From NCBI GenBank assembly GCA_016191015.1, contig JACPPM010000238.1:1-63723 (forward strand): DNA of 63,723 nucleotides. The letters run 5' to 3'. Below, piece after piece: positions 15,670 to 23,643 of the stretch. Under the pieces are notes generated by a model. The model saw nothing but the letters and a program-made list of their open reading frames with translations, did no database searches and was not told where the DNA came from. Both the position numbers and the translations under genes were made by a program. Position 1 is the stretch's first letter; each line of letters opens with the position of its first letter. The DNA is from Acidobacteriota bacterium. GTDB lineage: Bacteria; Acidobacteriota; CAIWXX01.

Positions 15670-16575
15670 GTGAGTGAGTCGGTCATCGAGGTATCGGATC
15701 TGACGCGCCGCTTCGGTGCCAAAACAGCCCTGGCCTCGGTGAGCTTGTCCATGCCGCGCGGGGCGGTGTACGGCCTCGTCGGCGCAAACGGGGCGGGCAA
15801 GACGACGCTGATCAAGCATCTTCTGGGCCTGCTACGGGCGGAGAGCGGCTCGGTGCGCGTCTTCGGCCTCGATCCCGTTGCCGATCCGGTCAGCGTCCTG
15901 TCGCGCATCGGCTACCTCTCCGAGGAAAACGACATCCCCGGCTGGATGCGCGTTGACGAGCGCATTCGCTACTCGCGCGCCTTCTATCCCGGTTGGGACG
16001 ATGTGTACGCGGAGGAGCCACGGCACACGTTCGGCCTCGACCCCATGGTGAAAATCAGGAACCTATCGAAGGGGCAGATGGCGCGGGCGGGGTTGCTCAT
16101 CGCACTGGCGCATCGCCCCGAGCTGCTCGTGCTGGATGAGCCCTCGTCCGGCCTCGATCCCATCGTTCGCCGCGACATGCTCGGCGCCGTGATTCGCACG
16201 ATCGCCCACGAAGGGCGGACAGTGCTCTTTTCGTCACACCTCGTGGGGGAGGTGGAGCAGGTCGCCGATCATGTCACGATGATCAGCCGCGGCCGCATCG
16301 CTCGGAGTGCGCCGCCGGAGGTCATCAGGGAATCTCACCGCTGCGTCACCGTCCGTTTCCCGGAGCCGCGGCATCGGCCCCCGACCGTAGCGGGCGTGAT
16401 GCGGTGGGAAAGTCAAGATCAGGAATGGACTGCTGTGGCTCGCGGCGGGTCGGGTGAGCTCGAAGTCGCCGTGGCCGGCTGGAAAGCGCGGATCGTCGCC
16501 GAGCGCTTCCCTTCCCTCGACGAGGTGTTCGTCGCCCACGCCGGGGAAGCCGCGGCGCCGGCTGAGGACGTGTAG
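15670..16575 (+). CDS. ABC transporter ATP-binding protein
   Basis: The 301-aa protein begins at GTG 15670. It shows Walker A (GANGAGKTT), a signature variant (LSKGQMARAGL), Walker B with the catalytic Glu (LLVLDEPSSGLD) and the H-loop (FSSHLVGEV). It resembles drug/lipid exporter ATPases of the CcmA/YtrB type. The C-terminal ~80 residues form an accessory domain. The next gene, 3 nt downstream, encodes only the N-terminal part of what should be its permease, so the exporter is probably incomplete. Confidence 0.9.
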   Translation: MSESVIEVSDLTRRFGAKTALASVSLSMPRGAVYGLVGANGAGKTTLIKHLLGLLRAESGSVRVFGLDPVADPVSVLSRIGYLSEENDIPGWMRVDERIRYSRAFYPGWDDVYAEEPRHTFGLDPMVKIRNLSKGQMARAGLLIALAHRPELLVLDEPSSGLDPIVRRDMLGAVIRTIAHEGRTVLFSSHLVGEVEQVADHVTMISRGRIARSAPPEVIRESHRCVTVRFPEPRHRPPTVAGVMRWESQDQEWTAVARGGSGELEVAVAGWKARIVAERFPSLDEVFVAHAGEAAAPAEDV

Positions 16576-16578
16576 TCC

Positions 16579-17709
16579 TTGCGCTCGCCCGCTGCCCCAT
16601 TCGCCTGGGAGTTTCGGCGGCGGCATCGCTGGGGACTGGCCGCTCTGACCCTCTACCTGGCCGTTCTCGGCACGCTCAGGCTTCTGGTTCTCGAGCCGGG
16701 AGAGCGTGTCACCCTCGATCACGACTGGAGTTTTGCGCTCGTGGTGGTCGTGCCCCTGGGCTCGACATTCATGTATTTCCTGGCGGTGTTCAGCTTCGGC
16801 CATGCAGGTGACCTGGCTGCACGCCATTCGATCTATCCCGCCCGAATGTTCACTCTTCCGCTGACGAACGCCGCGCTGGCGGGGTGGCCGATGTTGTATG
16901 GCTCGGCGGCGATGACGGTGCTGTGGCTGGTAACGAGGCTTCTCGCGGTGTGGCCGTCCGGAGTCGACATACCGGTCGTCTGGCCGGCGCTGCAGAGGGA
17001 CATCAGCGGGTGGAACCGGCTGGCCGATCGCCACGGGTTCATCGTGGTGTACCCGTCGGGTCTCGACGTTGGGGGCATAAGAGACTGGCGTGCGATACGC
17101 CCGGGGAAGGGTCTCACGAAGGATGTCCGATTCATCTCGGACCTGATCGACGACCTGGAGAAGGCCTACAACATCGACCCGACGAGGATTTACACCAACG
17201 GGCTCTCTAATGGCGGGGGCATGGCGTTCGTTCTCTCGTGCACGCTGTCCGGTCGCATCGCGGCGGTCGGAATGGTGGCGGCTGCGCACTACCTGCCGTG
17301 GAGCTGGAGCACAGACCACCGACCGGTGCCGATGATCTCCTTTCATGGGACAGCCGATTCCATTGCTCTGTACGAGGGCGGCACGTCGTGGTTGGGGCCG
17401 GAGCCGTCAGCGGACGTTTCGGAGCGGGCCGCGAACTGGGCTCGGCGGAATCGGTGCGGGCCCGACACCGTCGAATCGATGGTGGCAGCCGAGGTCACCC
17501 CCCGGGACTACGTAGACTGCGCTGGCGACGCGGCCGTCGTGCTGTTCACGATTCACGGCGGAGGCCATACGTGGCCTGGCGGCGGGCCCTTACCGGAGTG
17601 GTTCCTCGGACCCACGAGCAGCAGCGTCGACGCGACGCGTCAGATGTGGACATTCTTTCGTGAGCATCGGCTTCGGGAGGCGCAGAGTGCGGCGCGGGCG
17701 GCTCAATAG
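16579..17709 (+). CDS. Chimeric gene: truncated ABC permease joined in frame to a PHB-depolymerase-type esterase
   Basis: Residues 1-~138 are the N-terminus of an ABC permease with three or four hydrophobic segments (LAALTLYLAVLGTLRLLVL, FALVVVVPLGSTFMYFLAVF). From residue ~139 (RDISGWNRLADRHGFIVVYPSG) the protein is an alpha/beta-hydrolase of the PHB depolymerase/LpqC-feruloyl esterase family. It retains the GLSNGGG nucleophile elbow, an Asp region (HGTADSIALY) and the His region (HGGGHTWPGG). The esterase half lacks its usual signal peptide and first strands with the oxyanion-hole HG. The permease half lacks its remaining TM helices. The start is TTG. It is either a deletion fusion or an assembly chimera; enzyme activity is doubtful. 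Confidence 0.75.
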   Translation: MRSPAAPFAWEFRRRHRWGLAALTLYLAVLGTLRLLVLEPGERVTLDHDWSFALVVVVPLGSTFMYFLAVFSFGHAGDLAARHSIYPARMFTLPLTNAALAGWPMLYGSAAMTVLWLVTRLLAVWPSGVDIPVVWPALQRDISGWNRLADRHGFIVVYPSGLDVGGIRDWRAIRPGKGLTKDVRFISDLIDDLEKAYNIDPTRIYTNGLSNGGGMAFVLSCTLSGRIAAVGMVAAAHYLPWSWSTDHRPVPMISFHGTADSIALYEGGTSWLGPEPSADVSERAANWARRNRCGPDTVESMVAAEVTPRDYVDCAGDAAVVLFTIHGGGHTWPGGGPLPEWFLGPTSSSVDATRQMWTFFREHRLREAQSAARAAQ

Positions 17710-17721
17710 CCTGGTCGGAGC

Positions 17722-20700
17722 ATGACCAAGCCCCGCGTGGGCCTGAACTCCGGCCTGTGGCCGGTCCTGCTCTTGATCGCCCCGGTCTGGACTTGGGCCG
17801 CAGGACTTTCGCTGGACGTCGAGTCGAGCTCGCTGCAGTGGCTCGATGATGGCGCTGAGATCACTCTGCAGCTCAGGAACGATTCGACTCGCGTCGTGCC
17901 CGCTCGAGTCTCTCTCGAAATCCTGGATCCAAGGGACAGGGTGGTTATTCAGGCAGAGTGCTCGATCGCCATCGCCTCGGGATCGTCACAGACGACGCTC
18001 CCCTTGGCAGGGTTTCATCTCTCCGACCACCCGCTCGTTATGGTCTACCGGCTGAGATATCGCGTTGAACCGGAGCCGGGCGATGAGACCATTCGAGGCG
18101 TGGCGGGCATCGCGGCCTTTTCGCGTCTCCAGACCCCGGATCTTTTCGACGTGCACATTATTGGATATGACACCGTCTCTGTGGGCAGCCGCCTGAAGGT
18201 CGTCGTGTCGACACTGCATCCGATAACACGCACTGCCGCTCCCGGGGTCGAGGTGGTTGGAACACTGGAGCTCTCGGCCGACTCGAAGCTGCCGAGTCGC
18301 GAGGCTCGGAGCGTGACGGACGTGGGTGGTGTGAGCTTGCTGGTCTTCGAGATACCAGCAGATCTACCGGCGGATGATGCCAGGCTCCTCGTCGAGGCCT
18401 CCCGGGGCGCCCACGCGGCCAAGGCCGAGCTCGACATCAGCGTCGCTCGTGATCCCATCATCCATCTTTACACGGACAAGGGACTCTACCAACCGGGTCA
18501 GACTCTCCACATGCGCGCCCTGGCATTCGACAGCTCCCATCGCGCCATCGCCGGCGCCGCAGTTTCCTTCAAGGTCACCGGCCCCGATGATCGACTCCTC
18601 TTCACGTTGCCGGTCAAGACGTCCCGATACGGAGTGGCGAGCACCGACTGGAGAATCCCATCGAACCCGGTCCTCGGCACCTATTCGGTCGAATTCGGGA
18701 TGGACACGGCGCGCTTTGGACATGACGCATACCGAGGTACCTCGGTTCGCGTCAGCCGCTACGACCTTCCACATTTCGCAATCACGGCGGCTCCCGATCG
18801 AACGTACTATCTGCCCGGTCAAAGCGCCGATGTGACAATCGAGGCCGACTACCTTTTCGGTCAGCCAGTCACAACGGGACAGGTCCGGCTCACTGCGGAG
18901 AAGCGGGAACGATGGAGCCCCGAGCTCAGGCGCTGGGTGACCCAGACGGCATCAGTATTTGAGGGGGTTCTCGACGACAGGGGGACCTGTACCCTTCGCC
19001 TCGATCTTGGTGCGTCTCACGATTCCCTGGCGCAGAACGAGGACGATCACTATCAGGATCTCACTTTCACGGCCTCGGTCACGGATACAAGCACGGGACG
19101 CACCGAGCGCCGATTCTTTGATGTCCGTGTCAGCAAGGAACCGATTCACTTGTACGCAATCGATCTTCCGTGGGGAGCACATGAAGGCGACCCGTTCGAC
19201 TTCTTCATTTCATCATTCGAAGCTGATGGCACGCCGGTTTCGGTCGAGATCGCGGTTCTTCAATCGAGTGCTCCGGACTGCTCGAGCGGCGTCGATGGGA
19301 CGCGGCTCATTCGAACGGTCCGCACCAACCGCTACGGGCTGGCCAAAGTCCGGGGTCTCGTCATACCTCCCTCCCCATGCCATCGACTAGTGCTCGAGTC
19401 CCATGATGAAGAAGGGAGGAAGATAGGGCACTTCGAAGAGCGACTCGTGTTCGGCACCGAGGTTCCCATTCGACTCGAAACTGATCGGACAATCCTGAGG
19501 CCTGGGGACCCGGTTTCGGTTCGAGTCTCCGGCCCCGGTTCTGCCGTCGTCGTGCAGGTTCTCCGGGATCTCGAAATTGTGAGGTCGCAAACAGCCTTAC
19601 TGAGAGATGGCCACGCGACCGCCACCTTTCCGTGGGACCCCACTTTCGAAGGCGCGCTGTACGTCGTTGCCTATCCTCCAGAGTCGACGGGCGCGTGGAG
19701 AGTGGACGGGACCAGCATTCCCATCGTCTATCCGTCCGGCAGCTCGCTCAATCTCCGAACTCGTTTGGATCGATCGACCTATCGTCCGGGGGATGAGGCG
19801 CGCGTCGTGTTCGATCTGTACCAGGGGTCACGCACTCCCGTCCCAGGCGTTCTGGGCGTTGTCGCAATCGACAAGGCCCTTCTCGAGCGCGAAGATGAGG
19901 AGCGCATTTGGCCCTCATGGACCTGGGAAGACAGCTTTGCAGGCATCTCCACCGAAAACATCCTCCGACTGGACGTGCGGCGGCCGCCTCCTGCCGATCT
20001 GGATCTTCTGGCCGAGATCCTCTTCCTCGGCAATGCCCTGCCTGCGCAGATCGGGAGTCGACGGTTCCGGACGGATGCCGCTTCTGAATTCGTCCCGTTT
20101 TTCGAAGAGAAGCTGGCATCATTTCGAGCAGCAGCGGAAATGGCAATCCTCGATCCTCCGTTGGATGAGCAGGAAGGCTTTCGCGTCCTCCGTGAAGCCG
20201 AGGCGGCGATTGCCGGAATCGTCGACCCGTGGGGGTGCCCGCACCGCTTGAGAATGGCCCCGCATGCAAATCGGCTTGTTCTGGAGGTCGAGACCGCCGG
20301 TCCGGACCAGCAGTTCGCAACAGGCGATGACTTCGTCGCTCTTACAGAGTCCTGGTATTACTTCGAAAGGCCGGGCCGGCTTATCGACCGGGCATTCGAG
20401 GAACACCATCAGCGGACGGGAGGCTTCATCCTGGACGAATCCACCCTGGCAGCGGAGGTGTCTAAGTTGGGCCTGGATCTCACGGCGATTCGAGACCCGT
20501 GGGGATGTCCCTACGAGATCGGGTTCGAGGTTAGTCAGACCCATTACCTGATCAAGGTCACCTCTGACGGGCCGGATCAGCGCCCCGCCTCGCCTGCCAA
20601 CGACGACGACATCCGCGTCTGGACCGCATCGATCGACTCCTTCCGTGGGACTCGCCAGGCAATCGAGCTGGCGTTGGATTCGGCAATGGCGGAGGGCCAG

Positions 20701-23643
20701 GCCTTCCCGGCGACACTCGCTGAATTCGAGCGTGTTCTCAACGGGGCGGGTCTTCCATTGAGCAATGTCTGCGATCCATGGGACCAGCCGGTCTCGGCTG
20801 CCTTCTCGGAGCAAGACCAGTACGGAGACGCAACGCGGATCTATGCCTACTCCGCCTACCCTGATCCGCCGAAACGTCGCATCGAGATCGAGCCGGTGAC
20901 ACAGCGTGTCGGGTGGATCAGAATGAAGAGCCAAGGCCCCGATGGCCTGCCTCAGACGCAGGACGATTGTGAGGTGGCGAGTTTTTCCCGCGTTCTTTCC
21001 GAGCAACCGGCCGGAGAGAGGCGGCGGCGGACGGATCCGCTGCCTGCGAACGCGCCAGGAGACGGCTCTATCCACGGCACCGTTCGGGATATCGACGGCC
21101 GTCCTGTAGCCGCGGTATACATCTCGGCGGCTCGCGAGGGTCTGGTGATCGGACGAGCGTCGACTCGAATCGGCGGGACATACACGCTCGAAAACCTCCC
21201 AGCAGGTCTTTACGAAGTCTGCTTCGAGCGTGCAGGATTCACGACGATCCTTGTAGATCACGTCCCCGTGAACGCGGTGGAATCCCTGAGGCTCGACGCG
21301 ACGCTCGAGGTGAGCCCGGCGGCGGAGGTCGTGACCGTCACAGCCGAGTCTCCGTCGCTCGACACGAAGCACTCAGGGGTAGGTTTGAATCAGGGACGTG
21401 ACGGGCCGCTCGCGACGTCTGCCATCGCAACGCCCCGGCTCAGACAGTTCTTCCCTGAGACTTTGGTCTGGGAACCCTCTGTCGAAACCGACGAGAGGGG
21501 CCGGGCGGAGCTCCGCTTCCGATTGGCTGACAACACCACGACCTGGAAGCTCAGGTCCACTGCTTCGACCGAGGACGGTCGCATGGTCACGATCGATCGG
21601 GACGTTCTCGCAACGCTGCCTTTCTTTGTCGAGCAGGACCCGCCTCGGACCCTGACCCAGGGAGATGAGATCTCCCTTCCAGTCGGGCTGCACAGCGACA
21701 TGATGCGTCCTGTCAATGTCGAGCTGGCGTTGAGGCCCGAGCCGTGGCTCAAGATAGTTGGGTCGCGCGTGGGTCCCGTTCAGGTGCTGCCTCGCAAGCC
21801 CAGGGTGGAGCGCCTGACGTTTCGCGCTGTCAGGCCCGTCCGGAATGCGCCCCTGCGTGTCACAGCGGCTGGTGACGGGGTCGGGGATGCTGTCGAGAAG
21901 CCAGTGACCGTTCATCCGGATGGCGAAGAGGTCGTGACGACCGAATGCCAACTCCTCTCAGGGCAGGCGATCATGCACGCCGTGGTCCCGGATGATGCGC
22001 TCCCGGGGTCGGTGGAAGCCGAGCTGGTCCTCTACCCGAACCTCATCGCGCAAGTGGCTGAGAGCGCCGAGGGGCTCCTCGAACGACCTCACGGCTGCGC
22101 GGAGCAAACGGCATCTGTCGCCTTCGTCAGTCTCTTGCTGCTCAGGAATTCTGCCCAGCAGGCCCCGGAGGCTCCGACTCTCGTGCGCGCTCGCCGATAC
22201 GTTCAGGATGGCTACGATCGCCTCCTCGATTTCCAGCAGCCGTCCGGCGGGTTCTCCTACTGGCGAGGCGGGGAGCCGGACCCGGCGCTCACCGCCTACG
22301 TCATCCGCTTCTTGACACAGGCTCAGGGCGTCGTCGTCGTCGATGTGTCGGCTCTGGAGCGAGCCCGCGATTGGCTCCTCAAGAACCAAGCCGCTGACGG
22401 GCGTTGGCCGATGCTCGCGGGCGAGGTCGAAGACCGAAACGAGACGCTGGCATTGACGGCGATGATTCTTCGAGTGATCGCCGAAACTGCAACTGGAGCC
22501 GCCGATCTCGCCGTCGGGGTGCGGCTGTCCCGAGGGCTAGTCCACCTGCGAGATCGACTCGATGAAATCCCTGAACCCTACGCCCTTGCGTCGTATTGCC
22601 TCGCGGCTCTGGCGGTCGGCGACAAGACCGCAGCATCCGCGGCCGCAAGGCTGTTGTCCGTGCTGGCACATGAGGAGGGGGGCGCGGCGTACTGGAGCCT
22701 CGAAACGAACACTCCATTCTACGGACGTGGAGTGGCTGGCAGGATCGAAACCACCGCGCTTGCTGTGCAGGCATTGGCCGGGGCTCAGGCGGCGGGGATA
22801 GCTGTCGAACGCGAAACTATCGATCGCGGCGTCCTCTTTCTCTTCCGGCACAAGGACAGGCTTGGAGTCTGGTCCTCGACACAGGCCACCGTCAATGCTC
22901 TCGAAGCGCTGCTGGCGCAACTCTCGCGGGAGAGTCCAGCCAGCGACGTGCCGGGATCATCCTCGCCGGTCGACATCGTCATCAATGGAGAGAGGCTCCA
23001 AACGGTCGATCTTGCCACCGCCGACTTCCTCGGCGGCATATCTCGCATCGACATTGCTGGAAGCCTGCACGCCGGCGAGAACAAAATCGAGATCCGAGGC
23101 GCCCGGCCAGTCCCGACGGGTCTCGCGCGCATCGCCGTCGCTAGCTACCGACCCTGGGCTCGCCCGGACGCACAATCTCGGGCTGACAGAGCTTCATCGC
23201 TCGCGCTCGCTGTGCAGTTCGACACCACCGAAGCTCAGACGGGCACCGCCATCACCTGCCACGTGAGCGCCGAGAGGATCGGATTCAAGGGGTACGGCAT
23301 GCTTCTCGCCGAGGTCGGACTCCCGCCGGGAGCGGACGTCGACCGAAGGTCGCTCGAGGAAGCACGATCTCGAAGCGACTCCTCTCTCAGCATGTACGAG
23401 ATTCAGCCGGATCACGTTGTCCTCTACCTCTGGCCCGAAGGCGGATCAGCAGAACTGACGTTCAGGTTCCGGCCCCGGTTCGCGATAAAGGCAAAGAGCG
23501 CTCCTTCATTTGTTTTCGAGTACTACAACCCGGACGCACGGGCCGTTGTTCCTCCGGTGGACTTCACCGTGCGCGGTCGTAGTGGCAAAGAAGCCGACGC
23601 AGATGGCGCCGATCGCGGAGCCGGGGCGGATACAGCCCCTTGA
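17722..23643 (+). CDS. Alpha-2-macroglobulin family protein with embedded pseudopilin-like repeats
   Basis: The 1973-aa exported protein has a signal peptide (WPVLLLIAPVWTWAAG). MG domains come first (YTDKGLYQPGQTLHMRA is the classic MG motif), followed by the bait-type region. The later A2M domain has WEPSVETDERGRAELRFRLADNTTTWKL, then a thioester motif PHGCAEQT (Cys ~1459), the alpha/alpha thioester domain and a receptor-binding-like end. Between ~770 and ~1100 are three segments with the GspG pseudopilin signature (DPWGCP...GPD...DD, at ~835, ~930 and ~1020). A carboxypeptidase-regulatory-like beta domain (GTVRDIDGRPVAAVYIS) follows. Such proteins trap proteases in the periplasm. No PBP1C gene is adjacent, but a secreted metalloprotease lies nearby. 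Confidence 0.9.
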   Translation: MTKPRVGLNSGLWPVLLLIAPVWTWAAGLSLDVESSSLQWLDDGAEITLQLRNDSTRVVPARVSLEILDPRDRVVIQAECSIAIASGSSQTTLPLAGFHLSDHPLVMVYRLRYRVEPEPGDETIRGVAGIAAFSRLQTPDLFDVHIIGYDTVSVGSRLKVVVSTLHPITRTAAPGVEVVGTLELSADSKLPSREARSVTDVGGVSLLVFEIPADLPADDARLLVEASRGAHAAKAELDISVARDPIIHLYTDKGLYQPGQTLHMRALAFDSSHRAIAGAAVSFKVTGPDDRLLFTLPVKTSRYGVASTDWRIPSNPVLGTYSVEFGMDTARFGHDAYRGTSVRVSRYDLPHFAITAAPDRTYYLPGQSADVTIEADYLFGQPVTTGQVRLTAEKRERWSPELRRWVTQTASVFEGVLDDRGTCTLRLDLGASHDSLAQNEDDHYQDLTFTASVTDTSTGRTERRFFDVRVSKEPIHLYAIDLPWGAHEGDPFDFFISSFEADGTPVSVEIAVLQSSAPDCSSGVDGTRLIRTVRTNRYGLAKVRGLVIPPSPCHRLVLESHDEEGRKIGHFEERLVFGTEVPIRLETDRTILRPGDPVSVRVSGPGSAVVVQVLRDLEIVRSQTALLRDGHATATFPWDPTFEGALYVVAYPPESTGAWRVDGTSIPIVYPSGSSLNLRTRLDRSTYRPGDEARVVFDLYQGSRTPVPGVLGVVAIDKALLEREDEERIWPSWTWEDSFAGISTENILRLDVRRPPPADLDLLAEILFLGNALPAQIGSRRFRTDAASEFVPFFEEKLASFRAAAEMAILDPPLDEQEGFRVLREAEAAIAGIVDPWGCPHRLRMAPHANRLVLEVETAGPDQQFATGDDFVALTESWYYFERPGRLIDRAFEEHHQRTGGFILDESTLAAEVSKLGLDLTAIRDPWGCPYEIGFEVSQTHYLIKVTSDGPDQRPASPANDDDIRVWTASIDSFRGTRQAIELALDSAMAEGQAFPATLAEFERVLNGAGLPLSNVCDPWDQPVSAAFSEQDQYGDATRIYAYSAYPDPPKRRIEIEPVTQRVGWIRMKSQGPDGLPQTQDDCEVASFSRVLSEQPAGERRRRTDPLPANAPGDGSIHGTVRDIDGRPVAAVYISAAREGLVIGRASTRIGGTYTLENLPAGLYEVCFERAGFTTILVDHVPVNAVESLRLDATLEVSPAAEVVTVTAESPSLDTKHSGVGLNQGRDGPLATSAIATPRLRQFFPETLVWEPSVETDERGRAELRFRLADNTTTWKLRSTASTEDGRMVTIDRDVLATLPFFVEQDPPRTLTQGDEISLPVGLHSDMMRPVNVELALRPEPWLKIVGSRVGPVQVLPRKPRVERLTFRAVRPVRNAPLRVTAAGDGVGDAVEKPVTVHPDGEEVVTTECQLLSGQAIMHAVVPDDALPGSVEAELVLYPNLIAQVAESAEGLLERPHGCAEQTASVAFVSLLLLRNSAQQAPEAPTLVRARRYVQDGYDRLLDFQQPSGGFSYWRGGEPDPALTAYVIRFLTQAQGVVVVDVSALERARDWLLKNQAADGRWPMLAGEVEDRNETLALTAMILRVIAETATGAADLAVGVRLSRGLVHLRDRLDEIPEPYALASYCLAALAVGDKTAASAAARLLSVLAHEEGGAAYWSLETNTPFYGRGVAGRIETTALAVQALAGAQAAGIAVERETIDRGVLFLFRHKDRLGVWSSTQATVNALEALLAQLSRESPASDVPGSSSPVDIVINGERLQTVDLATADFLGGISRIDIAGSLHAGENKIEIRGARPVPTGLARIAVASYRPWARPDAQSRADRASSLALAVQFDTTEAQTGTAITCHVSAERIGFKGYGMLLAEVGLPPGADVDRRSLEEARSRSDSSLSMYEIQPDHVVLYLWPEGGSAELTFRFRPRFAIKAKSAPSFVFEYYNPDARAVVPPVDFTVRGRSGKEADADGADRGAGADTAP

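Follow-up and report, generated by a model that had tools for sequence, protein, structure and literature searches.

An open reading frame joining the start of an ABC permease gene to the end of an esterase gene in an Acidobacteriota genome, probably a product of local deletion

The window, by which we mean the whole stretch of DNA analysed (63,723 nucleotides, positions 1 to 63,723 of contig JACPPM010000238.1 of an Acidobacteriota bacterium), carries a hybrid reading frame behind an ABC transporter ATPase gene. The features of this region are as follows, with L025 denoting a related locus in which the permease and esterase are intact:

15670..16575, plus strand: ABC transporter ATP-binding protein (301 aa, GTG start; PF00005, E=1.4e-22)
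16579..17709, plus strand: whole in-frame hybrid ORF (TTG start, 376 aa, no internal stop)
16579..16992, plus strand: permease remnant (75% identity to L025; holds residues 1-138 of ~545, with about three hydrophobic segments)
16981..16992, no strand assigned: breakpoint zone TGGCCGGCGCTG (Trp-Pro-Ala-Leu; either gene is a possible origin)
16993..17709, plus strand: esterase remnant (residue ~78 in L025 numbering to the stop; Ser/Asp/His regions kept)

The ATPase shows 82% identity to its counterpart in L025 and is the upstream partner of the lost permease; three bases separate its stop at 16575 from the TTG start of the hybrid at 16579. Since the full-length permease of a relative, L034, also starts with TTG, this start codon is no sign of damage. 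Alignment to the L025 genes showed that hybrid residues 1-138 are the first ~138 residues of the ~545-aa ABC permease, while residues ~135-376 correspond to residues ~74-314 of a PHB-depolymerase/feruloyl-type esterase (66% identity over esterase residues 73-304), placing the join at residues ~135-139. Given the strong homology in both halves, the hybrid is not a chance ORF, and the open plus-strand frame together with the alignment of each half to a separate gene bears out the original prediction of an in-frame permease-esterase fusion at about residues 138/139. A 1973-aa alpha-2-macroglobulin-like protein is encoded at 17722-23643. Besides its TED, MG2, A2M, bait and receptor domains it has a carboxypeptidase-regulatory domain, the thioester motif CAEQ and, apparently, two or three internal modules with the pseudopilin-like pattern 'DPWG.P ... 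GPD' (weak T2SSG match; repeat 20224/20494).

Hydropathy analysis of the permease part gave three peaks (residues 20-38, 52-70 and 106-124) versus at least 11 in L025 and L028. The gene keeps the position of the permease directly after the ATPase but not the complete complement of transmembrane segments of a ~545-aa permease; with residues 139-545 gone, the later helices are missing as had been proposed, and what is left is too little for a whole ABC permease half. Pfam and NCBIfam searches of the hybrid recognised the esterase part only and left the permease part unrecognised. The NCBIfam model e_dPHAscl_type1 (NF050058) covers hybrid residues 142-360 (E=2e-39) with model positions 41-276 of 276, indicating that the start of the esterase is missing. 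Because model positions 1-40 are absent, the hybrid scores 135.6 bits and stays below the curated cut-off of 150 bits, which the intact L025 esterase passes with 183.1.

Within the esterase part, the alignment showed that the GxSxG-type Ser (GLSNGG), Asp (HGTAD) and His (GGGHTWPG) regions are conserved, in line with the claim that the catalytic regions had been retained. Also confirmed was the loss of the N-terminal signal and oxyanion part: the structural model of the intact L025 esterase begins with a helix at residues 4-32, which serves as anchor, followed by strands at 37-41, 44-51 and 62-69 and then by the HGAG sequence of the HG(A/G) oxyanion loop, and all of these are absent from the hybrid, whose join falls just after the HGAG loop. 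By analogy with alpha/beta hydrolases, the third strand would be central and the HG loop would shape the oxyanion hole; a fused esterase lacking its first three strands and the oxyanion loop is therefore unlikely to be active. Four esterase positions that are invariant elsewhere are also changed in the window (D163G, C182S, F215S and R246P). AlphaFold returned a pLDDT of 83.4 for the intact L025 esterase as against 43.3 (pTM 0.34), a poor model with no confident fold, for the fusion, a contrast that is only indicative because the input alignments differed between the two runs and contained no relatives for the permease part. Elsewhere in the same genome, contig C86 encodes a distant esterase of this family that retains the N-terminal region (35% identity to P0003).

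When 84,980 species genomes were scanned for the permease part, 16 loci emerged, and a further locus (G041/L041) came from the window's own phylum. Permease and esterase were separate neighbouring genes in 14 (L025, L027-L038 and L041) of the 15 related loci in which the DNA reaches past the permease, one of the two arrangements suggested earlier as targets for a search of relatives. In the fifteenth, L039, the permease is present and the esterase absent; the contigs of L026 and L040 end at or within the permease and fall outside this count. The order in the relatives is ATPase-permease-esterase, with permease and esterase complete, on the same strand and separated by -4 to 47 nt (12 loci measured); the permease start of L032 is cut off by the contig end. 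The compact cassette spans L025:7263-10605, with equivalents in L027-L038 and L041. L033, L034 and L028 are apparently the same records as G166, G284:C10 and G385. The hosts are MAGs labelled Acidobacteria, Gemmatimonadetes, Deltaproteobacteria and Myxococcales. Within the phylum the cassette is rare, occurring in 5 of 396 genomes including that of the window, and in the one further genome of the window's class that was compared both the permease and the esterase gene are missing. The comparison reveals a conserved cassette of ATPase, permease and esterase; for its permease, neither Pfam nor NCBIfam has a family model and the PDB gave no sequence match; we found little literature on the cassette or on the mechanism of such fusions. 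Reading frames are also disrupted in two other members. The permease at L033:8001-9338 has an internal deletion and a frameshift (residues 1-398 followed by 512-545 in a different frame), a second, independent damage to this gene, and at L038:4340-7438 the ATPase and the esterase are each split across two frames, which are frameshifts or sequencing errors.

A stretch corresponding to 1373-1510 nt of these loci is missing from the window, and since permease and esterase are neighbours in the relatives, the deletion in the window is local and not a join of distant sequences. The aligned breakpoint codons are tgg ccg gcg ctg in the permease and tgg ccg (gcg) in the esterase, and in most relatives Trp-Pro is encoded by both genes at this point in the same codon register. 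These shared codons (tggccgg...) explain where the join lies and why the frame survived. The short sequence common to both ends that marks a short-homology deletion is thus present, as judged from the relatives, all of them from outside the window's species and genus, in which the exact in-register identity measures 3-9 nt; random point pairs in the two L025 genes gave a run of at least 7 nt in 0.07% of draws. L028, the closest relative in the esterase tree, reads WPVLQRD where the window reads WPALQRD. Neither the lost permease residues 141-545 nor the lost esterase N-terminus has another copy in the 6.4-Mb assembly (G000).

Taken together, these data make it likely that an ancestral cassette became, through one short-homology deletion, a recent in-frame hybrid without activity. 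The ancestor would have been a compact cassette of ABC ATPase, ~545-aa permease and membrane-anchored secreted esterase, from which a single deletion of ~1.4-1.5 kb probably took away all permease codons after ~138 along with esterase codons 1 to ~73-77. With its ends in the short matching stretches (tggccgg..., Trp-Pro), which lie in the same codon register, the deletion would have left one open frame; slippage or illegitimate recombination at short homologies presumably caused it in the cell, and recently, and the resulting hybrid is predicted to have neither transport nor esterase activity. Of the two origins first suggested, a recent deletion fusion accordingly fits relatives with complete adjacent genes in the same order and on the same strand, -4 to 47 nt apart. 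The other, an assembly chimera, fails as a join of unrelated places: the halves agree with the relatives in order, strand and neighbourhood, which excludes a random chimera of distant loci, and it stands only as a possible local collapse over a short repeat. In that case both full genes would be real and the assembler or a chimeric read would have dropped ~1.5 kb between short matches. We consider this unlikely: the assembly is a draft of 349 contigs, the fusion is known from one genome and both halves still resemble normally conserved coding sequence, but the shared stretch is at most ~12 nt, shorter than the usual assembly k-mers, and the missing DNA is found on none of the remaining contigs, with the completeness of the genome put at 100%.

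The hybrid was also tested for decay. Its frame is intact, its codon-position GC is normal and its branches are of ordinary length; neither these lengths nor codon-position rates nor substitutions at invariant columns gave a clear signal of decay, with third positions near saturation, and the ratios of position-1+2 to position-3 branches fall among those of functional relatives. If constraint has been lost, the loss is recent or undetectable, meaning that the event is young, that the hybrid is still constrained or that the join is a local assembly error. A functional hybrid, its trimmed but working esterase held by three permease helices at the outside of the cytoplasmic membrane, would suit the open frame, the retained Ser/Asp/His regions and the unaccelerated change, and from hydropathy the three hydrophobic segments and a basic N-terminus would put the C-terminus outside. 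Against it stand the loss of the three N-terminal strands and the HGAG loop, the four substitutions, the absence of a confident fold and the restriction of the fusion to one genome, and we judge it very improbable. Membrane tethering, offered earlier as the outcome of the fusion, is not supported as a function, since a hydrophobic N-terminal helix is already part of the intact esterase and the remnant lacks the strands and the oxyanion loop. Slightly slimmer still is the chance that, soon after birth by deletion, the hybrid is retained and expressed as a membrane protein with a rebuilt role in ester cleavage or binding. An ancient, conserved permease-esterase fusion family might be expected from genes that are conserved neighbours, yet the search for relatives with the same fusion found none among the 16 loci of the species collection, the 60 relatives searched with the fusion protein or the other permease-bearing genomes among the 396 of the phylum, and we give this reading almost no credence. 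The hybrid is thus probably a recent, inactive relic. It offers a clean example of neighbouring bacterial genes brought into one frame via a short shared stretch in the same register, and a caution that an intact hybrid frame is no evidence of a working fusion protein.

Compared with known systems, the hybrid is like the ABC exporter permease of L025-type cassettes in residues 1-138 and in its place beside the ATPase, and differs from it in lacking residues 139-545 and all later helices. Its C-terminal part matches the NF050058 esterases without model positions 1-40, in a family of extracellular short-chain-length PHA depolymerases/PHB esterases (NF050058, PF10503; CE1-type feruloyl and acetyl xylan esterases), and the intact L025 member resembles the acetyl xylan esterase AoAXEB (9j07; TM 0.72-0.75). 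The event is an ordinary kind of bacterial mutation and does not amount to a new enzyme. Variable segments of bacterial genomes are documented to arise by short-homology illegitimate recombination, and deletions between repeats too short for RecA (threshold ~30 bp) have been described as contributing to bacterial variation (PMC2884548). The event in the window resembles these deletions in having its breakpoint in a short repeat below that threshold, and differs from them in that both copies are coding and share one register, so that an in-frame fusion resulted.
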